Of a stretch of DNA of 48,553 nt, positions 5,261 through 19,787 are shown piece by piece. Under the pieces are notes generated by a model. It did not search any database. It saw only the letters and a program-made list of their open reading frames with translations, and was not told the DNA's origin. The DNA comes from a bacterium (GTDB lineage: Bacteria; Bacillota; Clostridia; Lachnospirales; Lachnospiraceae). Location: NCBI GenBank assembly GCA_023664305.1, contig JAMPFT010000001.1:334956-383508 (forward strand), given 5' to 3'. The position numbers and the translations under genes are program-made. Position 1 is the stretch's first letter; every line of letters starts with the position of its first letter.

Positions 5261-8200
5261 TCATTTCCCTTCCGGGACGCGGCACTTTAACCGCAAAACC
5301 CCGGTCTCTTCATCGTAATCCGTAAAAAAGGCCCCGTATTCCCCGCTTTCCGACACCTGTTCTTCCGTCTCCGCTTCCTCAAGGCTTATCTCCCCGTCCG
5401 TCAGGAAATTGACGCCCGTCAATCTGTCTTCCGACTTTTTTACCGTCAAAGGATATTCCCGCATCCAGATGGCAAGCGATGCAAATTCTCTTCCCGCCGT
5501 TTTACAGAGTGTGATTACCGTGTCAAACCCCAGGTACGATTTCAGCGCCGAGTTAAAATAGATTCTCAATATGCTTCTGACATCGTACTGCTCAATGAAT
5601 TGCAGCAGCAGACTCCTGCAGGCCGCCTGTACGCTCTCGCCCTGTATAGCTGCAGGCCAGGACCGACGGGACGGCACCGGCTTTGAGCTGAATCTCCACG
5701 GGTTGCTCTTCTCGATCATGCTCAGATACCAATGAACCTCCGTAACGTTGTCCGCCCTCAGCTTCAGACCGTTTATCATCGGCAGCGCCAGCTTTCCCTC
5801 ATTCTGACTGCTCCATCCTGTCACCTCGACCTGTAAATCCCCCTGATCCCGCATGCTTAAACGCTTCCTGTACGCCGCCCGGTTCATGGCCGCCAAAAAC
5901 ACCTGCCTTGCAGCCGTACTGCGCACATCCTGCCCGCAAATAACCTCCTTCACGATAAATACTCTTTCGGCCATTCGATAGGATCCGATTTCAAACTGAC
6001 ATAACATTCCCGTCCTGTATCCCTGGATATTTTCCGTTCTCCAATAAAACAGATCGCCCCACACCCCGCTCCCCCGGTAAAATTCAGTCGGCAGAAGAGA
6101 CACCAGCCAGACTGCTTTCCCCTGACGGTTATCCGGCGTAATCGAACCGATTCTTCCCGAAAAGAAGTACCTTGTATGCCCACCCAACATCTTTTGAATG
6201 TCCAAAACATCCGTTTCTTCCCCGCAGCGGCTTTCCGCCATCTCCGAGAGCGTAACGCAATACTTGAAGGGAGTATTGATATAGACGAAAAACAATTCTT
6301 CCGCGGAGAGCGCAAAGTCCGTCAGCTTTTTCCAACAGTCTCTCACCTGTTCGGCAATCCCGTCCGGGAAACGATACCATCCCCCTTGCTTTCGAAAAGC
6401 CTGATGCCGCCAGGGATTCAGCTGCCCGCTGCTCATACGGTTTATCATATTGATGAAATAACGAAGCTCCGCAGGCTTTTTCCCCAGGGCACAGCAGCAA
6501 TCCACCGTCAACAGCCCCAGACGCTGCAGCTGCTCTTTTGTCAGGGGCCGGGGAAAGCTCAGGCTGCTGATCCGCTTATTCTGTGCCGTTGTAAGCGTTT
6601 CCGCCCTCACAATCTCCTCCAGCTCTTCACAGAGCTTCTCAAAAGCCGCCGTCCCGTCATCTGCCGCCGGAGCCTCATCCGGAATCCCGCGCAGCGAAAA
6701 ATGATTCAGATTCATCCTTGTTATGTGAAAATACTGTGGTCTGCCTTCTTCCAGCAGCTTTTTGCAAAACGCTTCGTTTTCCCGCTGCCACGCCTTCGGA
6801 AAAAGAACCGCTTTTGTCCCCATGCATATATTCTGCGTACAGAATCCAAAACTGTCGTTCCATTTCACCACACGGCCCAGGAGATGATATTTTGCAAAAT
6901 ACCGCTCTACGTCCGCTTCGGATCCCCGCAGTACCTCTATCTCTTCTCCCCCGGCAAACACCAGACGTAAGAAGGTGTTGATCGAATAAGTGCTGCGCAG
7001 ATGAGTATTCATATAGATCCGCAGCATTTCCTCTCCGGTACATCCCTGCCGGATCAGATTGCAGATGGCTCCGGTCAGATCATAAGAAGGATTCCGCTCA
7101 TAATGAGGATAATATTCTTCTTCCGGCTGAAACCCAAACGCGTTATTTTCGCCCAGAACATCCAGCCATTTCAGGATACATTTGTTCTCCTGCCAAAATA
7201 AAGCCTCAAAAGAATCCTGCTGTGCCATGTTCGTCTTTCGAACCTTCATCTTACAGGGCGGTAAGACATCCCGGTCTTTCAACAGGGCCTGCGCCTGCTC
7301 CGGCGCCGCCGTAACCTGCCGGGTCAGATAATACATCTCAAACCAGTCCCGCAGCTCCGGCCAGTTTTCATTCTCTTCCTTTTTCGCCGAGCCCAGAACA
7401 GACCACCACCGATTTACCCCTTCCAGGAAACAGGGCGCGTCCTGCAGTATCATCTTTTCCGCAAACAGAACGCCGCGGAACAGCTCCTTACTCCCCGCCC
7501 GGAAAACCATTTCCATAAGCTCCTCTTCCGTCATATCCAGCTGACTGAGCCTGACCGGAAGAAACAGCTTCAGAAGCTGATCCGCATATCGCATATGGCC
7601 GTTCTCCAAAGCCGTCAAAAGCAACGTCTTCAGCTTTGCCGGAATTACCTCCGGCACCAGGATTTCTACTCCCTGCCTGTAAGCTACCGTCGTATTCCAT
7701 TCCACATCGAACGTGTCATAAAACACCTGATATAACCGAATCTGACAATCCAGTTCATCCGGCGCATATCGGAACAAGGCAAATATCCGGCGTGAAAAAG
7801 CGGCAGCCTGCTCCCCGTCCGCAATCTTTTCCGCAAAAAGCGACGCGGACAGCCGGGCCGACGCGTCTTCTCCCAAAAAGACAGCCGCCGCACACAGCAG
7901 AGCCATCTCCTCCTGCCACCATAAAAAGGAGGGCGGAACCGTCGCTTCCCGGCTGCAGCTTCCCGTTCCCGAACCGCTTTCCTCCTCTGCTGCTTCCGCA
8001 CTGACTGAGATGCCGGCCTCCTTCAGACGCGCATACTCTTCCCTACAGGCTTCCGCCGCCCTTTTGCGCTCTGCGGCGGCGGTTTCCTCCGACATCTGCC
8101 CGCTCCTCGCAAGTCTGGCTGCCAGAATCACCGCCGCATAAAGATTTTCCCTTCTCCCCAGTTTAAAAAAGTCTTCCGTCGGCAGTTTTCTACGCCACAG

Positions 8201-8296
8201 CACCTGCACCGCCTGCTCCGCTCCAATCAAAACCGTATTGAAATCCCGGTCTTTCCACCGGACCGCAGCTGCCATTTTCTTCACAAGTTCATTCAT
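5261..8296 (-). CDS. Large three-repeat protein of the MoxR-VWA-NACHT operon, unknown function
   Basis: I do not recognise this 1011-residue protein as a named family. No signal peptide or membrane segment is visible. Residues 1-370 are mostly helical, with a charged low-complexity linker near 98-118. The rest consists of three degenerate repeats. A helix of the pattern (L/F)xxxYxN(T/S)xxK/R recurs at about 424-436, 668-678 and 909-921, spaced 243 and 241 residues. Each is preceded by a (W/Y)(L/F)xMI...NPWR-like element near 376, 613 and 856. After the first helix, GRVVKWNDSFGFC (474-486) resembles the RNA-binding strand of a cold-shock/OB fold; after the second, YFFSGRIGSI starts a similar segment. 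It is the last gene of the operon, 79 bases after the NACHT gene, so it is probably an effector, sensor or scaffold of that system (inference). GGAAGAG lies 10 bases before the ATG. Confidence 0.8.
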   Translation of the reverse strand: MNELVKKMAAAVRWKDRDFNTVLIGAEQAVQVLWRRKLPTEDFFKLGRRENLYAAVILAARLARSGQMSEETAAAERKRAAEACREEYARLKEAGISVSAEAAEEESGSGTGSCSREATVPPSFLWWQEEMALLCAAAVFLGEDASARLSASLFAEKIADGEQAAAFSRRIFALFRYAPDELDCQIRLYQVFYDTFDVEWNTTVAYRQGVEILVPEVIPAKLKTLLLTALENGHMRYADQLLKLFLPVRLSQLDMTEEELMEMVFRAGSKELFRGVLFAEKMILQDAPCFLEGVNRWWSVLGSAKKEENENWPELRDWFEMYYLTRQVTAAPEQAQALLKDRDVLPPCKMKVRKTNMAQQDSFEALFWQENKCILKWLDVLGENNAFGFQPEEEYYPHYERNPSYDLTGAICNLIRQGCTGEEMLRIYMNTHLRSTYSINTFLRLVFAGGEEIEVLRGSEADVERYFAKYHLLGRVVKWNDSFGFCTQNICMGTKAVLFPKAWQRENEAFCKKLLEEGRPQYFHITRMNLNHFSLRGIPDEAPAADDGTAAFEKLCEELEEIVRAETLTTAQNKRISSLSFPRPLTKEQLQRLGLLTVDCCCALGKKPAELRYFINMINRMSSGQLNPWRHQAFRKQGGWYRFPDGIAEQVRDCWKKLTDFALSAEELFFVYINTPFKYCVTLSEMAESRCGEETDVLDIQKMLGGHTRYFFSGRIGSITPDNRQGKAVWLVSLLPTEFYRGSGVWGDLFYWRTENIQGYRTGMLCQFEIGSYRMAERVFIVKEVICGQDVRSTAARQVFLAAMNRAAYRKRLSMRDQGDLQVEVTGWSSQNEGKLALPMINGLKLRADNVTEVHWYLSMIEKSNPWRFSSKPVPSRRSWPAAIQGESVQAACRSLLLQFIEQYDVRSILRIYFNSALKSYLGFDTVITLCKTAGREFASLAIWMREYPLTVKKSEDRLTGVNFLTDGEISLEEAETEEQVSESGEYGAFFTDYDEETGVLRLKCRVPEGK

Positions 8297-8375
8297 TTTC
8301 CGTTTTCTCTTCCGTCTTTCTGTTTCCGGTTATACCGTTTACGGCTGCAAAACAGCCGCCTGCAGCCTGTGAAAC

Positions 8376-10010
8376 TTAAATCAGCTCGTCCAACTGATTC
8401 GCAACACCTTCCATAAAAAAATACTCCTGATACACCGGATTGGCAAACCCGATTGTTTCCCTGTCCTCATAGACCAAAAGTCCCATGTCTACAGCCAGCT
8501 TCAGACACTGCCTGGTGTCCGGCAGTGAAAACCCGAAAGCATTCTTGCACTTTGCCATCTGCACCAAAGCGTCCCTCTCCGTCATTTGATCCTGCTGAAG
8601 AATTGCCAGCGCCTGCAGAAAAGAGGGAAGGTACTCAATATTTTCATCCTTCTTTTCCATCTGCTCCCTCTCCATCAGATATTCAATATAATCGTTTGTG
8701 ATATCTACCGGCAGTTCGTGCCTGTAAACCGCTACGCGCAGCAGCTGTTTCAGTTTCAGAGGAGTATTCATCGCCTCAAAATATCCGGGCTCCGTCTCCA
8801 TTTTCCGCAAAATCATCTGCCTGCACTCCGGATCCTGACAGTTTGTCTCAAAATACTTTTTTCTGTCTTCCATAGTCATAGGGTACAGATACAGCTTTTT
8901 TGCCGGGTACAGGGTAGGAATACCGGCTCTGGAGATTGCTCTGTCCGTCAGGAAAATCCGGCTTTTCGGAAAAGTCCGATACAGATAATCCAACTCCTTC
9001 GCCACATTCCGTTTCAGAGATGTATCCAGGATTTCATTGTAACCGTCCAGCAAAAGGCATAACTCTCCGCTCGCGAGGAAGTCCTCTGCAAGTTCCTCCC
9101 GGATATTCATCAACGAAGCAATTCTCCCCTTCAGAATAGCATCCCCGTCCGCCAGACTGCCAAGCTCAATATAAACCGGCAGCGGCGTTGTCTTCTTCCC
9201 CTTATACCGAGACGCCAGAACATACTCTATCCGCTGCAGCGCCGTACTCTTTCCGGTTCCCGCTTCCCCCAGAAGCTTTACACAGTTCAACTCTTCCCGC
9301 GCCAGCAGTTTTTCGACAGAATACCCCTTGTCGCTGGAGCCTTCTTCTACCCAATGTACATCCACATAACCAAAGCCGTGCTCCTCTTCTCTCCGATACC
9401 GCTCTAAAATTCGCGCCGCGAAAATCTTCCCGTCAAAGCTGTCCCTGCGCTGTTTTTTCCTGTATTCCTGCCGCAGCACCTCCACATTTCTAAGACACAG
9501 ATCCAGCTTTACCACCAGGGTGGAAATAATCATATTTTGCAGATTCCCTGCAGACAGGTCTACCGTCAGATCATGAATCAGAGAATTGCGGAACTGATAA
9601 ACGCGCAGATAATGATCGATATAGTTCTCGTCTCCCCTGTAGAGATCCGGATTATCCTTGGTCTTCACCCGATCCGGCAGCACATGAAACGCTTCCCGGT
9701 ACATATTTGCAAGCATCCATTCACGGTTCGACGGGGTCAGCGGCTGCGGGTAACCCTTCATCAGATCGGGATCCACAATTTCACAGAGACTCTTCATAAA
9801 ACGCTCGATATCCGAAAAATTACGGATACGCTGAGGCTTTTCCAGATCGGAGGCCTCCGCCATCTCTGTAATCGCCTTCTCCTCACTGATGATATTTTCA
9901 TCTATATCCAAAAAAAGATTCAGGGCCTGTACGGCGGCATCTATCGCTTCTCTTCTGAAGCTGCCGGATACCGTATGAATCACCCACGCGCTCACTTCAT
10001 CTCTCAACAT
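8376..10010 (-). CDS. NACHT-domain NTPase with N-terminal HEPN-like domain
   Basis: This 544-residue STAND-class P-loop NTPase has a NACHT core: Walker A GEAGTGKST (248-256), Walker B ending in LCLLLDGYNEI (317-327), a sensor strand FLTDRA, and a C-terminal winged-helix motif FANPVYQEYFF typical of NACHT proteins. The helical N-terminal region contains RNSLIH (141-146), an exact RNxxxH motif of the kind that forms the active site of HEPN ribonucleases. NACHT proteins with nuclease N-termini act in bacterial anti-phage defence, where sensing triggers oligomerisation and effector release. No obvious ligand-binding repeat follows the NACHT module, so sensing may be done by neighbours such as the 1011-residue protein (inference). 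The start is fixed by GGAGG nine bases before the ATG. It lies 48 bases after the VWA gene. Confidence 0.88.
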   Translation of the reverse strand: MLRDEVSAWVIHTVSGSFRREAIDAAVQALNLFLDIDENIISEEKAITEMAEASDLEKPQRIRNFSDIERFMKSLCEIVDPDLMKGYPQPLTPSNREWMLANMYREAFHVLPDRVKTKDNPDLYRGDENYIDHYLRVYQFRNSLIHDLTVDLSAGNLQNMIISTLVVKLDLCLRNVEVLRQEYRKKQRRDSFDGKIFAARILERYRREEEHGFGYVDVHWVEEGSSDKGYSVEKLLAREELNCVKLLGEAGTGKSTALQRIEYVLASRYKGKKTTPLPVYIELGSLADGDAILKGRIASLMNIREELAEDFLASGELCLLLDGYNEILDTSLKRNVAKELDYLYRTFPKSRIFLTDRAISRAGIPTLYPAKKLYLYPMTMEDRKKYFETNCQDPECRQMILRKMETEPGYFEAMNTPLKLKQLLRVAVYRHELPVDITNDYIEYLMEREQMEKKDENIEYLPSFLQALAILQQDQMTERDALVQMAKCKNAFGFSLPDTRQCLKLAVDMGLLVYEDRETIGFANPVYQEYFFMEGVANQLDELI

Positions 10011-10058
10011 ACTGTTTTCCTCCGATTGTCTATTTGCGCCCTTTCGGAGCGCCCTGTA

Positions 10059-11840
10059 CTACTCCATATAAAACACCGGCCCCTTCGGCGGAAAGGGCAG
10101 ACTTTTCCCCTTCGGAACCAAAAAAGCATGATCCCTGCCAAAGAGGTTCAGCCGGTCACACTCGCAGTCGGTGATAACGAGCAGCGGGGCTTCCTTCGGA
10201 AAGTCCTGCGCCCGCTCCAACAGCTCCACCCCCGGCTGAAGCACTGTGCCGCCCCGCCCCCGCACCCGGACGCTTCCGGCAATGTCCGCCGCCTCCATAT
10301 ATCCCTGATCATAGGGGGAGGCATCGCAGAACACCACCCTCACCCGGTTCACATCCCGGGCGGCGCTGTAGCTTGCAATGGCTCCCAGCGCCGCAGCCAG
10401 GAGCCCCCGATCCATGGAACCGGAGGTATCCAGCAGCACGCCGAAGGTACGCCCTTCCTGGGCGTCCTCCTCATACCGGTAAGAGGGTCTTGGGATATCC
10501 GGCGTGGCCGACTGCCTGCGGCTGAGCCTGGCGTAGGTCCGCCGCTTTTCCAGAGGCTCGAACCTTTCGTCGAACCACCGGGCAAGCTTCACGTCCCAGG
10601 GAATAGGCGGCTGGGACAACGCACGGATCTCCTCCACCAGCCCGGCGGGAAGATAGCCCCTGTCGTGAACCTGATGGAAATCCAGTCCCCTCTGAATGGC
10701 AGAACGGCACCAGTTATCCAAATCCACGAAATCTCTGGAATCCTGCCAGTCCGGCGGGCCAAAAAGGATATCGTGCTTCAGCATGCGCCTGTATTTCCGC
10801 AGATTGGCCGCCAGAAGATCATAGACACTCTCCGCCGACAGCCCCGCAAGCTCCGGATCGTAGAGCAGCCCCTCGGGCATCGTCCCCACCTCCATGTCCC
10901 GCAGCCACTGATTGATCACATAGTCGCAGGCCGTGTTCCACAGCTCCGGATCCCGCTTGCCCAGCCGCGCCTCATGGCACAGGGCGGCATGAAGGTACTC
11001 ATGGGCCAGCACGAACCGCCATTCCTGCTCCGTCAGGCGGGCGTTGGGGTTTACATAGATTTCCTGCATCCGCATGGAAATAGCCGCAACAGAGATATCC
11101 ATCCGCTGCGCTGCCAGCGGATCCTCCACCAGCCGGAAACCGGAAGCCACGCCTCCCAGCAGCGGATAGGAAGCTAAAAACCACTCTCTGGCGCGCTGAA
11201 TGGGACCCCTTTTCCGGTATTCCCCGGGTTCGGTATTGACGCCGCCCGCATAGTCAACCGCAGTCCGCAGGGCATCCCGCAGGCTCTCGGCAAAAAGCTG
11301 CCGCCAATCCGTGGGGCCGCCCCACCAGTGCCACGATCTCCCCTCTCCCTTCCAATACATGTCAGCCCGGCCGCCGCTCATAGTGGAAAATTGAAAATAC
11401 GCCGGATCCTTGTGTTCCTTTAACCAGTAATAAAGCTGCTCCTCCTCCCGGACGGCGGAGGGCAGCGCGGCAGACAGCTCCCCCGGAACTGTCCCTATGT
11501 GGAAATCCGCCAGATATCTTGCCGTCACGCAGTCGCAGGCAGCATTCCAAAGCGGATCCTTATCCCGATCCTCCCGGATGTGACCAAGCCCCAGATGAAG
11601 CAAACAGTGCGCCAAAACATAAGCCCACTCCCCCGGGGCTGCCCGTCTGTGGCTGTTGGCATAAATATCCCCTTCCGACGTGACCCACGCCCAGTCTTCC
11701 TTTGCCATGGGATAACCGTCGTCAAAATGAAGATGCGCCCGCTCCAGCAAAGGACTCAGTATGGCGTTCCGCTTCACCAGAGCATATCCGGCCCGAAAAG
11801 CTTCCGCCGCGGGATTTGGTTCTTTTGACTTTGCACTCAT
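10059..11840 (-). CDS. VWA-like protein with duplicated zincin-type metallopeptidase domain (DUF2201-like)
   Basis: The 593-residue protein has two copies of a putative metallopeptidase domain followed by a C-terminal von Willebrand factor A domain. Copy 1 has HCLLHLGLGH at 78-87, in which the catalytic Glu of HExxH is replaced by Cys. Copy 2 has HEYLHAALCHE at 280-290, an intact HExxH. Both are followed by the same N(A/T)ACD motif. The VWA domain has the MIDAS motif DTSGSM (471-476), a later GGT and an ITDCE strand, so it probably binds a metal ion and a partner protein. VWA proteins of this type work with MoxR AAA+ ATPases in metal-dependent remodelling complexes. The gene overlaps the MoxR gene by 4 bases (ATGA), implying translational coupling; there is no strong ribosome site of its own. 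The protein is predicted cytoplasmic. Confidence 0.88.
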   Translation of the reverse strand: MSAKSKEPNPAAEAFRAGYALVKRNAILSPLLERAHLHFDDGYPMAKEDWAWVTSEGDIYANSHRRAAPGEWAYVLAHCLLHLGLGHIREDRDKDPLWNAACDCVTARYLADFHIGTVPGELSAALPSAVREEEQLYYWLKEHKDPAYFQFSTMSGGRADMYWKGEGRSWHWWGGPTDWRQLFAESLRDALRTAVDYAGGVNTEPGEYRKRGPIQRAREWFLASYPLLGGVASGFRLVEDPLAAQRMDISVAAISMRMQEIYVNPNARLTEQEWRFVLAHEYLHAALCHEARLGKRDPELWNTACDYVINQWLRDMEVGTMPEGLLYDPELAGLSAESVYDLLAANLRKYRRMLKHDILFGPPDWQDSRDFVDLDNWCRSAIQRGLDFHQVHDRGYLPAGLVEEIRALSQPPIPWDVKLARWFDERFEPLEKRRTYARLSRRQSATPDIPRPSYRYEEDAQEGRTFGVLLDTSGSMDRGLLAAALGAIASYSAARDVNRVRVVFCDASPYDQGYMEAADIAGSVRVRGRGGTVLQPGVELLERAQDFPKEAPLLVITDCECDRLNLFGRDHAFLVPKGKSLPFPPKGPVFYME

Positions 11841-12895
11841 CCGTTTCGTTTGTCGGCCAACCTGGGCAGATCCCGGAACAACTCCACCACAAACCAGTCC
11901 GGCAGCTCCTTTCCGTCCTCCGGAGTCACCGCCATCCGGGCAATCTCCAGACTTAAATCCGCCAGCTCAGTGATGCGATCCTTCGCCCGGAGGACAAGTG
12001 TGCGGCTGTCTGCACTAAGCTTTGCCCGCTCCGGAGGCAGCTCCTTCACCAGACGAGCGCGGAGGGATTGCGCCAGAAAATAGAGCACATCCCGCTCCTC
12101 CGGCTTATCCGGCCAGGGCTGCTCCCCGGACAGAATCTTGTCCAAGGCATACTGGCTGCGCACCTGCCGTATATAAGCCAGAAACTGAGTGGCATGATGG
12201 GAACTTAAACACCCCGCTGCCAGGATCCGCAGCGTCTCCTCCTCAATGTCCGGGCCATAGCTGTGGATGGCATCGCTCAGCATATGCCAGGAACGGGGCG
12301 TGGAAAACGGCTCCTCGCTCTTGGGAGGCTTTGCCCACAGATGATCCGGCCTGCTGGAAATATAGTCATAGACATAAGGATGGATACCTTTTTCAGCCGC
12401 CCATTCCAGCCACAGACGCGGGCTGGCTGTCAGCTCCACATGAAACATCCGGTTCACCAGCGCCGAGGACATGGGTCTGGTGATGGCATTGTCCTGCGCC
12501 CGGTTGCCTGCGCCCACCACGATGGAACCCTCCGGCAGGCAGTACTCGCCGATCCGCCGCTCATGGATGAGGGAGTAAAAAGCCTTCTGCACCTCTGAGG
12601 TACAGGCGTTCAGCTCATCCAGAAAGAGGACATAAGGCTCCTGACGCGCAATCGTCCTGGGCGGGCAGAATACGCTGTAGCCGTCCCTGATCTGGGGAAC
12701 GCCGATGATGTCCTCCGGAGCCAGCTGGCTGCCCAGAAGGGAGACGCAGGCCAGCCCCAGGCTGTCCGCAAACTCTTGGACGATAGCGGATTTTCCGATG
12801 CCCGGCGCTCCCCAGATGAATACCGGGCGGATAAGCCCTACGTTCAGCAGGATATCCAATAACTGTTTATGGTTTACGGTAGTAGTAAGATTCAT
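11837..12895 (-). CDS. MoxR-family AAA+ ATPase
   Basis: This is a MoxR/AAA_5-type ATPase of 352 residues, with Walker A GAPGIGKS (29-36), Walker B VLFLDELN (89-96), a sensor 1 region VVGAGN and an arginine-rich segment SALVNRMFHVEL. MoxR proteins act as chaperone-like unfoldases for partner VWA proteins, and the next gene, overlapping by 4 bases, encodes exactly such a partner. A TTG at 12928 would lengthen the protein by 11 residues, but I chose the ATG at 12895, which has GGAG 12 bases upstream, a longish spacing. It is the first gene of the four-gene operon and lies about 85 bases after a good sigma-A promoter. Confidence 0.88.
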   Translation of the reverse strand: MNLTTTVNHKQLLDILLNVGLIRPVFIWGAPGIGKSAIVQEFADSLGLACVSLLGSQLAPEDIIGVPQIRDGYSVFCPPRTIARQEPYVLFLDELNACTSEVQKAFYSLIHERRIGEYCLPEGSIVVGAGNRAQDNAITRPMSSALVNRMFHVELTASPRLWLEWAAEKGIHPYVYDYISSRPDHLWAKPPKSEEPFSTPRSWHMLSDAIHSYGPDIEEETLRILAAGCLSSHHATQFLAYIRQVRSQYALDKILSGEQPWPDKPEERDVLYFLAQSLRARLVKELPPERAKLSADSRTLVLRAKDRITELADLSLEIARMAVTPEDGKELPDWFVVELFRDLPRLADKRNG

Positions 12896-12987
12896 AAGAT
12901 GTATTTTCTCCGTACAGTTTTTTCTCAAGCAGACGGCTCGTTGTATTGAATTATATTATCAAGAGTTGCAGCCTTCTACCAGTTTAA

Positions 12988-13016
12988 ATTATATCAGAAA
13001 AAGGCTGGCTGTACAA
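12988..13016 (-). promoter_or_regulatory. Promoter of the MoxR-VWA-NACHT operon
   Basis: TTGTAC (13016-13011), a 17-base spacer and a perfect TATAAT (12993-12988) on the minus strand. The start point would be near 12981. No strong operator is evident beside it. The interval 12896-13121 otherwise holds no gene. Confidence 0.7.
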
Positions 13017-13121
13017 TCAGAGCAAAGCCAAAGTATAAATCAAATCATGATTTTCCGACAGCAAACCGCCAAAATAATCCCTACTGTCCCTGCTACCTCT
13101 CCCGCCTTTTCAAATACCTCT

Positions 13122-14428
13122 TCAGCAAAAATACGGAAACGAGTATATATTATCGTCAAATCCCACATTCCCGGCTGAAAATTTCATGCCATATTGAATA
13201 TCCGGATACCTGTCGCTACCGATCAACGTCCGCAGCGATTTTGCCGTTCCTTTCCTGGCCTTCACCTCAACAGGCAGAAGGTTTTTCTGTGTCCGGACAA
13301 AGAAATCCTCTTCCAGCGTAGAATCCTCCCGTTTGTAGTAATTCAATCCGTACCCGCACTTCGCCAGAGCCTCTCCGACAATATTTTCATACAAAGCGCC
13401 CTTATATACGTCAAGGTTCTTGTTCGCCCGCAGATCCTCCTGCGCCTCCTCGTCCAGCATGGCAACAAAAAGGCCGGTGTCAAAGAAATACAGCTTATAC
13501 TTTGTATCATCATAATTTCCCTTCAGCGGAAGCTCGGGAAAACTCAGGCAATAACAAATACGGATGAGTCCCGCGTCCCTCATCCATTCAATGCAGCCCC
13601 GATAATCCTTAAATCTTGCGCCCTTTGCCACCTTTGAAATCTGAAACTTTTTGTTTTCCTTAGCCAACTGTATCGGAATCTGTTCGAACACATTCAAAAT
13701 CCTCGTCTGACCCATGCCGTCTGCGTATTTTCGGATATCTTCCCGGTAATCTTCCAGGAGCTGTCTCTGAATCTCCAGGGTTCCCTCAAAGGTACCTCTT
13801 CGGATATATTCCCTTACAACTGCAGGCATACCGCCCAAAATACAATAATCCAGAAACAGACTGCCAAACACTCTCATCTCCGTCTGATTAAAAGGCTCCT
13901 GATTTTCCATATGAAGCAGCATCTCCTCAATGGCTGCATCGCCATATCCTTTTGCCCACAGAAATTCTTCAAAATCAAGGGATGTCATCTCATAATCCGT
14001 TTTATAGCCTACGCTGTTGCTCTCAATCCTCTTATAATGGATACCTAAAAGGGAGCCGCTGCAGATCACGTCAAACCGCCCATCCGTCTTAAAAAATTTC
14101 AGTGCTGCGGCAATTTCCGGATATTCCTGCAGCTCGTCAAAAACAAGAATCGTTTTGCCCGATTCAAAACGTTTGGACAGGTCTATCCTTGAAATATTTC
14201 GTACAATATCCTCCACCCTGTACCCGTCCTCCGTTATGGATTTGTATTTAGGCTCCTCTATAAAGTTGATGTAAACGATGTGTTCATAATTTCCACTGGC
14301 AAACCGCATTATGGACTCTGTCTTACCAACCTGCCTTGCACCTTTTCAATCAGGGGCTTTCTGTCCGAATCTTCCTTCCATGATATAAGATACCGGTCAA
14401 TTTTCCGAGTTAAATAAACATCCGTCAT
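13122..14428 (-). pseudogene. Frameshifted AAA_14/DUF4143 ATPase
   Basis: The protein is an AAA_14-DUF4143 ATPase, a large accessory family of uncertain role often found in host-adapted bacteria. A start ATG at 14428 has AAGGAAGG upstream and reads MTDVYLTRKIDRYLISWK up to about position 14347. The frame then runs to a stop. One base over, the text continues with the Walker A motif KGARQVGKTES and the rest of the protein (Walker B ILVFDELQ, DUF4143 region, nuclease-like C-terminus with VEVKARKG). An in-frame TGA sits immediately before the K of Walker A, so a single-base deletion in or beside the A4 run (14343-14346 on the plus strand) explains everything. As it stands only an N-terminally truncated protein lacking Walker A could be made, for example from ATG at 14309. 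Sequencing error is possible but cannot be judged here. Confidence 0.8.
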
Positions 14429-17734: not shown

Positions 17735-18043
17735 GGAAGCCAGAAAAATCAATAAACTGAAAACCATAGAGACGGCCGCAAGGCTCGGTATCTCCCAGCC
17801 TACCTTAAGCGCCTGGGAAGGCGAGCGGAAGTCCCCCTCTATCGAAGGGCTTGAAAAGATGGCTGATTTATACGGCGTCACCACGGATTATCTGTTGGGC
17901 CGAAGCCCACAGGGAGAAAACGACTCTCTGACCCCTGTTCCACCGGAGTCCCTGCCTGTCTTCCACGGCAAACCGTCTGGTCAGCAGAACACGGCTGGAT
18001 GCTTGTCAATGCCATTGACCAGGTGCTGCTGTTGCCGGATGCT
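17718..18043 (+). pseudogene. XRE-family regulator, frameshifted and truncated
   Basis: The N-terminal 60 residues form an intact XRE helix-turn-helix (RLGISQPTLSAWEGERKSPS, then LYGVTTDYLLGR). After PVFHGKP (near 17975) the frame turns into unlikely sequence, while the neighbouring frame reads VWSAEHGWMLVNAIDQVLLLPD. This is the conserved second domain expected in such regulators, so one base has been lost at about 17974. The restored reading ends at about 18043, where it meets the 3' end of the opposing DUF4276 gene. The 5' end overlaps the preceding gene by 17 bases. A truncated HTH protein of 123 residues could still be produced, running to a stop at 18089. Confidence 0.75.
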
Positions 18044-18357
18044 ATATCCCCAAAATACCAAGACACTAACTCATGGCACGCAATTCTAACCAGCACTTCT
18101 TTATTAGAGCCTTTGCATAATTCCAACAATTTCTCTTTCAGTTCTTTACAGTCATTGCTGTCTTGGTCCTGTACCACCACAAATTTTACATTCGGCTCAT
18201 TCCATCCCTTAAGCTTCGCGGTAAGCGACTTCTGCAAATCCGATTTCCCCTCATGGGGAATGGTAATAAACTGTATTTCAGCAGGCAGAACCCGCGGCAG
18301 CAGGCCATCCAGAAAATATTTCATCGACTGTTCTTCCAGTAAAAATATCAGCTTCAT
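17878..18357 (-). pseudogene. TOPRIM-like DUF4276 protein, 3' end replaced by antisense of the XRE gene
   Basis: An ATG at 18357, one base after the ATPase stop and with GGAGG seven bases upstream, starts MKLIFLLEEQ. The acidic EE near residue 8 and the strand FVVVQDQDSND (DxD at 64-66) match a TOPRIM-like catalytic core, and CHELVSWYFGD (95-104) is typical of DUF4276. From residue 105 (about 18043) the frame no longer looks like this family: it reads the antisense of the XRE gene, down to a stop at 17878. The normal protein should be longer. The partner gene is the ATPase immediately upstream, so this was probably the nuclease of a two-gene ATPase plus TOPRIM defence module. Confidence 0.72.
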
Positions 18358-18358
18358 A

Positions 18359-19531
18359 TCATGCCTCCAGCAACAGCCCTTGCTTCCACAGGGCTCCCGG
18401 CAGTTCCCCTGCGTCATACAGGGATTTTACCAATGCATTTTCAGAAGCTTTGCATATTGTCGTAAACCCATCCTTTTTTTCCAAATAGTATATCTCATCC
18501 AACTGTATGGCGTTTAAGAAGTCAGGGGAATGTGTCGATACAAACACCTGCCCTCCCTTATCCGCATACATCCTAAATTCCTCGGCCAGTTCCAAAAGCA
18601 ATTGAGGGTATAACTGGTTTTCCGGTTCTTCCACACAAAGCAACGCATGCTGCATCGGGTCAGACAAGAGAATAAGATATGTAAACATCTTTATGGTTCC
18701 ATCTGACACATACTTTGAAGAAAATGGATTCTTAAATTTACCATCCTGAAACCGAAGCACAATATAACCGTCCTGGGTCTCCTGTGCTTCCACATTTTCA
18801 ACTCCTGGAACTCTCTGTTTCATCTTTTCAATGATTTCATTAAAAATATCAGGATGGTTGTCATAAAGATATTTTGTTACAGAGGACAGATTATCGCCGC
18901 TTCTGGTCAGATGCTCGCTGTATTCGATCTCCTGACGTTCTCTCGCTGCGTCAATCCTGAAATCAGACACATACCAATCCTCAATCAGCTTTCTAAAAGT
19001 AGTCACCGCTTCAAATTCCTTAAACTGCCCCAAACCCTTAATGGCAAGAATGTCCGGCGAGTCCAGTTTCTGACGTTCCCTTGTGGCCAAGCTTACATCT
19101 TCATAACTGCTTAACTTGCCTTTGGCGGCAATTCCCTCCCCCATCGAAAAATCCAGTACTTTCCAAGGAGAGCCTTTCTGCCCTCTCCTGAAACGCAGCG
19201 TTTCCTTTTTCACAACTGCTTTCCCCATATCATCTAAACCGATAAAAATCTCATATGTGATCAGCGGTTCATTATCAGCCGGGCGAAACTTAATAACAAA
19301 TTCAATATCTCCGGCCTGCTCCCGCGATACGACCTCCTTATAGCCGCCTCTTTTTACCAATGCGGTACGCACATTGCTGTTTAAACAGTCGTGAAGAAAG
19401 CCAAAAATGTCGAAAAAAGTAGTTTTCCCTGTTCCGTTCTTTCCTAAGAACACAGCTAAATTGGGAATATCCCTGACTTCGACGTCTTTGAATACCTTAT
19501 AATTGTGTGTTTTCAATGACTCGATTTTCAT
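18359..19531 (-). CDS. OLD/AAA_21-type ABC ATPase
   Basis: This 390-residue ATPase has Walker A GKNGTGKTT (30-38), a YVSDGTIKMF signature region, Walker B ALLCVEEPENQLYP and the switch histidine in FVSTHSPDF, the hallmarks of AAA_21/SMC-like ATPases. Such proteins pair with TOPRIM or HNH nucleases in defence modules (PARIS, Gabija, Septu are known examples of the general design). Here the partner is the truncated DUF4276 gene that begins one base after its stop. The ATG at 19531 has AGGAGGT nine bases upstream; an earlier in-frame start lacks this. The gene itself looks undamaged. The 256 bases before it, up to spoIVB, hold no other gene. Confidence 0.85.
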   Translation of the reverse strand: MKIESLKTHNYKVFKDVEVRDIPNLAVFLGKNGTGKTTFFDIFGFLHDCLNSNVRTALVKRGGYKEVVSREQAGDIEFVIKFRPADNEPLITYEIFIGLDDMGKAVVKKETLRFRRGQKGSPWKVLDFSMGEGIAAKGKLSSYEDVSLATRERQKLDSPDILAIKGLGQFKEFEAVTTFRKLIEDWYVSDFRIDAARERQEIEYSEHLTRSGDNLSSVTKYLYDNHPDIFNEIIEKMKQRVPGVENVEAQETQDGYIVLRFQDGKFKNPFSSKYVSDGTIKMFTYLILLSDPMQHALLCVEEPENQLYPQLLLELAEEFRMYADKGGQVFVSTHSPDFLNAIQLDEIYYLEKKDGFTTICKASENALVKSLYDAGELPGALWKQGLLLEA

Positions 19532-19787
19532 ATACGGTTTTACCTCCTTTGCAGCCACATAAAATATAAGGCTGAAAGATTTCTCTTTTCCTCATGTCAT
19601 GGTCAATTACAGTCTTCTTTAAACACCAATATAATAATATCATATTTTTACAGGAGACTTAACAAAAACATGTGCGGTCTGAAATCCACTTAAGCCAAAT
19701 GATGTGTGAGTCGTAACGCTCCATCAATTGAAATGATGCTCAAACTGTAACAATGATAAATTTATATTCACACTGCCCGCCCAAGCC

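Follow-up and report, generated by a model that had tools for sequence, protein, structure and literature searches.

Two gene pairs, MoxR-VWA and HEPN-like NACHT-R, probably form separate modules within one operon-like row in a Lachnospiraceae genome

The window analysed here is a 48,553-nucleotide stretch of a Lachnospiraceae genome (GCA_023664305.1, contig JAMPFT010000001.1, positions 334,956 to 383,508), which carries four intact, co-oriented open reading frames on its minus strand, in the order MoxR, VWA, NACHT and R. Specifically, the row comprises a gene for a 352-residue MoxR AAA+ ATPase (11837..12895), a gene for a 593-residue VWA protein of DUF2201 type with two zincin motifs and a VWA domain (10059..11840), a gene for a 544-residue HEPN-like NACHT protein (8376..10010), and the gene for its partner, a 1011-residue protein of no known family that we call R (5261..8296). 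MoxR and VWA share an ATGA overlap, while gaps of 48 and 79 bases separate VWA from NACHT and NACHT from R. This arrangement had been described in an initial annotation of the stretch, and the open reading frames and Pfam matches bear it out; the annotation had read it as a candidate four-gene system behind one promoter. A candidate promoter upstream of MoxR (TGTACA-16-TATAAT with a TG before the −10 element, 12988..13015, minus strand) makes the single promoter plausible, although promoter-like sites in the region are not in excess over shuffled sequence (3 found, 4.7 expected). The region scan found no promoter-like site just upstream of NACHT and no terminator-like site within the 48- and 79-base gaps. 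One terminator-like hairpin lies at 10098-10079, inside the last VWA codons, and carries little weight; terminator-like sites in the region exceed expectation (15 found, 8.8 expected).

The NACHT and R genes recur together in other genomes. Searched against genome contigs, the NACHT protein matched two loci in Erysipelotrichaceae metagenome-assembled genomes, the first of which is G061, and a three-sequence profile was built. NACHT members are present in 7 of 195 genomes of the G061 family (both seed genomes included), in 1 of 391 genomes of the window's class (its own, with the three-sequence profile), and in 4 of 138 genomes of the window's genus (its own, two divergent and one weak, with an eight-row profile). 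The weak match (G977, 42 bits) was unrecovered by hmmsearch on open reading frames, has no R in 9.5 kb and is left uncounted. R lies directly downstream of NACHT on the same strand in all 10 loci (the window, seven of the G061 family and two divergent ones of the same genus), a strict pairing in the loci seen. By the chosen start codons, the two frames overlap by 4–17 bases in the seven G061-family loci, and the gaps in the two divergent loci are about 12 and 0 bases. Furthermore, NACHT and R identities co-vary across eight of the ten loci (r 0.90, Mantel p 0.0001); this set omits two near-duplicates and includes a truncated R (L002) and a TAG-stopped R (L001). An R profile retrieves the window genome alone from 398 genomes of its phylum and G061 alone from 336 genomes of the G061 class, indicating that the NACHT-R family is rare.

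The MoxR-VWA pair has a distribution of its own. VWA homologues are present in 16 of 299 genomes of the window's family and 7 of 101 genomes of its genus, its own genome being counted in both. We examined 22 other MoxR-VWA loci, 15 from the family and seven from the genus (from six genomes), which show ~7.8 kb or more of sequence after VWA in 15 cases, 2.1–3.0 kb in five (L048, L049, L062, L065 and L067) and 0.9 kb in L038, while L063 ends inside VWA. The visible sequence of these loci holds neither NACHT nor R in any of the 22 (tblastn with two queries each, and profile search). Likewise, tblastn with the window proteins found MoxR or VWA at none of the nine other NACHT-R loci (7–21 kb each), and DUF2201_N, in a search that did match the window genome, was found in none of the seven G061-family genomes that carry NACHT-R. 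G931 and G949, the genomes of the window's genus that carry divergent NACHT-R, are not among the VWA-positive genus genomes, although we take both to have been in the sample of 101. On four plasmids from cyanobacteria and actinobacteria, a VWA homologue 47.5–49.3% identical over 99–100% of its length adjoins a MoxR-sized gene, which on three of these plasmids is annotated as MoxR; within 7 kb, profiles of NACHT and R match nothing on any of the four.

MoxR-VWA thus adjoins NACHT-R in the window only, and the two modules are independent of each other in the genomes sampled. The neighbourhoods of both pairs lead us to reject a conserved four-gene system; the initial annotation itself had named the occurrence of NACHT-R without MoxR-VWA in most genomes as a finding that would speak against its proposal, and such is the case in the genomes sampled. 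We conclude, with moderate confidence, that the operon-like row joins two modules of two genes each, inherited independently and set end to end: MoxR-VWA and a HEPN-NACHT plus R switch. The rival reading is a true four-gene conflict system, in which MoxR-VWA would assemble or reset the NACHT effector and R would serve as sensor. Co-orientation, the 48- and 79-base gaps, the one upstream promoter-like site and the lack of a terminator-like site in the gaps suit such a system, as does the existence of MoxR-vWA ternary conflict systems that can include STAND NTPases (PMC7159879). We nevertheless hold it to be very unlikely, since the combination is found in one genome only, since none of the nine other NACHT-R loci has MoxR or VWA, none of the 22 other MoxR-VWA loci shows NACHT or R within its visible sequence and none of the seven G061-family genomes with NACHT-R has a DUF2201_N match, and since a terminator-like hairpin marks the VWA end.

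A comparison within the genus locates the boundary between the modules. In the genome G943, TypA (95%), VWA (96%) and MoxR (99% identical) are kept in place, with the same TypA gene, and other genes, which look like ABC-transporter and two-component types by inspection of their translations, lie between TypA and VWA where the window has NACHT-R. Homology between the two DNAs runs through the VWA stop codon and ends there (junction at 10011..10059, minus strand), and on the other side it ends near the end of TypA. Upstream of MoxR, 34 of 50 aligned columns around TATAAT are alike in G943, with the likeness lost further up. The comparison indicates that one of the two lineages changed at this place, and that MoxR-VWA is intact without NACHT-R. 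A search for direct repeats or a tRNA at the borders gave nothing informative.

The NACHT protein combines NTPase motifs with a motif-bearing N-terminal segment. The NACHT model of Pfam matches 9 of 9 scanned members at E <= 0.5 (window protein 3.5e-10), and the protein has an intact Walker A (residues 248-255, 9246..9269, minus strand, by family alignment) and a Walker B-type LLLDGYNE motif. The closest PDB chains to the NACHT core are NLRC4 (2e-7) and BIRC1e, and 5 of 8 members match PADLOC PDC-S60 (best 9.6e-10). In an eight-member alignment, the N-terminal 200 residues contain few invariant positions, which include E69, K73, R141, N142 and H146. In particular, RN-x3-H (R141, N142 and H146; 9573..9590, minus strand) is kept in 9 of 10 members, and E69-x3-K73 (9792..9806, minus strand) in 8 of 10. 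Active HEPN domains are described as carrying Ex3[KR] and Rx4-6H motifs with a polar residue after the R (PMC3710099), and both motifs of the NACHT family match these features for HEPN RNases. At the level of motifs, the N-terminus of the NACHT protein is therefore HEPN-like.

The partner R is without a convincing match in Pfam, NCBIfam, PADLOC or PHROGs. Scans of PADLOC and NCBIfam with window R, and of Pfam, gave no match for it at E 1; with eight R proteins, Pfam gave unrelated matches to single members only (best E 0.0079) and PHROGs a single weak match to one member (E 0.009). R contains one clear unit, unit 1 (residues 372-536, 6689..7183, minus strand), to which a profile of this unit gives 187 bits and which bears a YMN-x2-LR core whose Y, M, N, L and R are invariant in an eight-row alignment. 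The same profile points to two weak copies, unit 2 (residues 641-716, 6149..6376, minus strand; 3.8 bits, E 0.027) and unit 3 (residues 857-930, 5507..5728, minus strand; 8.3 bits, E 0.0011). A triple repeat, as proposed in the initial annotation, is weakly supported by these two units, whereas self-BLAST of R at E up to 10 found no repeat. The unit profile also retrieves the divergent same-genus R proteins at E 3.8e-11 and 7.8e-10. R proteins are 550 (three loci), 759 and 780 (one locus each), 951 and 1030 (the divergent ones) or 1011 residues (the window) in length, and two copies are shortened, L002 by a contig end and L001 by an in-frame stop. In L001 the R gene (11620-13866) has an in-frame TAG at 13162-13164, beyond which the same frame is open further. 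Visual inspection and PMC3710099 led us to suspect an OB or cold-shock fold in R, which the searches do not support: the best PDB match is at E 0.9 for the segment and 1.2 for a segment profile, and a profile of whole R reaches 0.0095 in the helical part, against a designed protein, and 1.1 in the part suspected of an OB fold.

Several observations weigh against the reading of the row as MoxR-VWA plus a HEPN-NACHT-R switch. Among the divergent members, L071 is without both HEPN motifs and L072 without E-x3-K. No match to a HEPN model in Pfam was shown for the NACHT members, and the AlphaFold model of NACHT, made from three sequences, is too poor to use (predicted local distance difference test score, pLDDT, 62.5); its N-terminus is all-helical at this low confidence. 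The 50 Foldseek matches listed for the model include P-loop ATPases (ORC, NLRP2, NOD2, FtsH and RuvB, and also MutS and ABC proteins; query template modelling score 0.13–0.19) and no HEPN structure. Because of the missing profile match and the low-confidence model, we base the HEPN assignment on motifs, and it is in this form, by the counts of 9 of 10 and 8 of 10 and not by a Pfam HEPN model, that the HEPN-like NACHT protein of the initial annotation stands. A structure prediction for the 1011-residue R, which the annotation had suggested, was run from three sequences and gave a pLDDT of 42.5, too poor to use. The searches drew samples of species only. The four window genes may well be co-transcribed, given their close spacing, their shared orientation and the lack of a promoter-like site immediately before NACHT. 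Finally, codon usage does not clearly set NACHT-R apart as foreign (L1 0.108 for NACHT and 0.097 for R, vs 0.063–0.139 for six housekeeping genes of the window); the guanine-plus-cytosine content, by contrast, does differ, in favour of two modules (59% in MoxR, 61% in VWA, 49% in NACHT and 53% in R).

The function of the NACHT-R module can be approached from these motifs. Because the HEPN catalytic and NTPase motifs are kept, we read NACHT-R as most likely a defence-type RNase switch, with R as a separate sensor or scaffold. In the mechanism that we infer, including its RNase activity, its trigger, the sensor role of R and the direction in which R acts, and the cellular and RNA targets, R, with one to three units, would act as a detached sensor or scaffold. 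An invader signal would cause the STAND/NACHT NTPase to oligomerise and so bring HEPN domains together. The joined HEPN domains would then act as a metal-independent RNase and cut RNA, most likely tRNA, rRNA or mRNA, whereupon growth would stop.

The same pairing could serve the opposite purpose, with R as an antitoxin-like inhibitor that silences the HEPN-NACHT RNase instead of an activating sensor. HEPN domains are common toxins (PMC3710099), and the strict pairing, overlapping frames and co-variation fit a toxin-antitoxin-like pair. R is large, however, with 550 to 1030 residues among complete copies. Such size and length variation would be unusual for an antitoxin, and the NACHT protein has an NTPase switch of its own, for which reasons we consider an inhibitory R unlikely.

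Where NACHT and R are carried bears on whether the switch serves defence at all. NACHT has no match in phages, three partial matches in plasmids and one partial match in a viral contig, over the NTPase core, while R has no match in plasmids, phages or viral contigs. The lack of a phage, plasmid or viral-contig home beyond partial NTPase-core matches, together with the siting of some NACHT-R loci among housekeeping genes, would suit a stress or housekeeping RNase regulator. A housekeeping role is nonetheless quite improbable in our view, given the very patchy distribution (7/195, 1/391 and 4/138 genomes, own and seed genomes included), the antiphage NACHT proteins already known (PMC12169576, PMC13092281), and the HEC-01-like and PDC-S01-like genes nearby.

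These neighbours lie within 7 kb and support a defence-like neighbourhood, a point that the initial annotation had proposed to check. An AAA_21 ATPase and its small neighbour (17878-19558, minus strand) match PADLOC HEC-01 (E 5.6e-169 and 1e-40) and represent a candidate defence system, by sequence match, ~5 kb upstream of MoxR. An AAA_14/DUF4143 ATPase gene adjoining MoxR (13122-14309, minus strand) matches PADLOC PDC-S01 (7.5e-132); it looks broken or misassembled, because its Pfam match begins at AAA_14 position 23 and its 5′ part is in another frame. At locus L016, a PDC-S01-like gene stands head-to-head with NACHT.

The MoxR-VWA module belongs to a recognisable type. Pfam assigns MoxR to AAA_5 (8.4e-12) and the VWA protein to the DUF2201_N metallopeptidase (1.6e-23, three stretches) and to the VWA-like DUF2201 (1e-6). 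The presence of both DUF2201 domains, of a metal ion-dependent adhesion site (MIDAS) and of the adjoining MoxR identifies a DUF2201 VWA metallopeptidase with a MoxR partner. The MIDAS motif of the VWA domain (DxSxS, 10416..10430, minus strand) is kept in 18 of 18 proteins. Of the double zincin proposed in the initial annotation, both motifs are present; the second (HEYLH, 10974..11003, minus strand) is intact, with HExxH in 18 of 18 proteins, but the first (HCLLH, 11580..11609, minus strand) is without the catalytic Glu in 17 of 18, the window protein included.

The neighbourhoods of the relatives of this pair suggest where it may act. RtcB is present at 7 of the 15 family loci (L038, L039, L043, L046, L047, L049 and L051), PrfH at 2 of the 15, and metallophosphoesterase-like matches at four MoxR-VWA loci (L037, L040, L047 and L051); Pfam checks of examples confirm RtcB, an RF-1-domain protein and metallophosphoesterases near MoxR-VWA. 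Because of these RtcB and PrfH neighbours, a role in a translation- or RNA-related complex is suggested, and MoxR-VWA, a widespread AAA+ remodelling pair, probably acts on components of translation that are damaged or stalled. Such RtcB/PrfH neighbourhoods may already be described in a 2016 study of RNA repair in conflict systems; a search of titles and abstract starts found no link of DUF2201-MoxR to RtcB or PrfH.

The loci also differ in the state of the pair. Fused or shortened MoxR-VWA copies occur at L047 and L049-L051, L051 having a decayed copy at 8612-9116 in which MoxR residues 1-77 adjoin VWA residues 494-593, and a shortened, frame-broken copy lies at 9710-11791 of L064 (G940). G973 has two copies of the pair (L062 and L063). 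In L042, MoxR and VWA are separated by a type II restriction enzyme and a DNA methylase (11860-13730). The window genome has a second DUF2201_N match on another contig (G000:C4:44600-45226, L036; 50.3 bits).

One can imagine the two modules being functionally linked, because HEPN RNases are thought to be metal-independent (PMC3710099) and RtcB joins 2′,3′-cyclic-phosphate to 5′-OH ends. An RNA-damage switch, HEPN-NACHT-R, might have been captured in this lineage behind MoxR-VWA, whose relatives are found with RNA-repair genes, attack and recovery being co-expressed; once activated, the R-NACHT assembly would be dismantled or cleared by proteolysis through MoxR-VWA, which would replace the RtcB repair branch, not found in the window genome. 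We give this scenario little credence.

Our analysis replaces an attractive four-gene interpretation with what is probably the true unit, HEPN-NACHT plus R, a two-gene family that is likely an undescribed variant of the HEPN-STAND/NACHT kind. A literature search of titles and abstract starts, in which R has no name to search by, found no account of NACHT genes paired with anything like R. Since R has no convincing library match, has NACHT as its constant partner in the loci seen and differs among loci in its length and number of units, it would make a good test of bacterial NLR-like sensing with a separate sensor. The link of the DUF2201-type MoxR-VWA pair to RtcB/PrfH RNA repair, in turn, hints at what this chaperone pair, otherwise without an explanation, may act on.

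Each module can be compared with systems already described. RtcB-PrfH RNA repair operons (PMC9223846) resemble the surroundings of the window pair's relatives, which adjoin RtcB at 7 of 15 loci and PrfH at 2 of 15; the window genome, in contrast, has no RtcB match (94.6% complete). Group 2.2 jumbo phages likewise encode a MoxR adjoining a VWA protein with an N-terminal metallopeptidase, a pair proposed for virion assembly (PMC7824862), whereas relatives of the window pair are often near RtcB. Phage records that match the window VWA protein number 384; among the eight listed, seven are partial at 27% and one, an unannotated faecal record, reaches 45% over 97%. The MoxR-vWA ternary conflict systems share the MoxR and VWA core pair with the window, and their third component is given as VMAP, an inactive STAND (iSTAND), FtsH or a beta-propeller (PMC7159879). 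In the window, NACHT, VWA and R have no Pfam match at E 1 to VMAP, inactive STAND, FtsH or beta-propeller, the bpMoxR model matches window MoxR below its cut-off (24.3 vs 27 bits), and a conserved third component was not found, NACHT or R being seen beside none of the 22 other MoxR-VWA loci, although in two of these hardly any or no sequence is visible past VWA. We therefore reject a ternary system of the described kind, from which the window also differs in the intact Walker motifs of its NACHT and in the DUF2201-type zincin motifs of its VWA protein.

For the NACHT-R module, the nearest counterparts are bacterial HEPN-STAND and bNACHT proteins. The former likewise have an N-terminal HEPN domain and a STAND NTPase in one protein, and some carry C-terminal cold-shock-like OB domains (PMC3710099), whereas the extra part here is the separate R, in which an OB fold was not found by sequence. 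Antiphage bNACHT proteins such as bNACHT25 likewise combine a central NACHT NTPase with an N-terminal effector; that of bNACHT25 is a PD-(D/E)XK DNase (PMC12169576), while the N-terminus of the window NACHT is HEPN-like. Unlike bNACHT25, the window family has a second, repeat-bearing protein encoded adjacent to NACHT in every locus seen.

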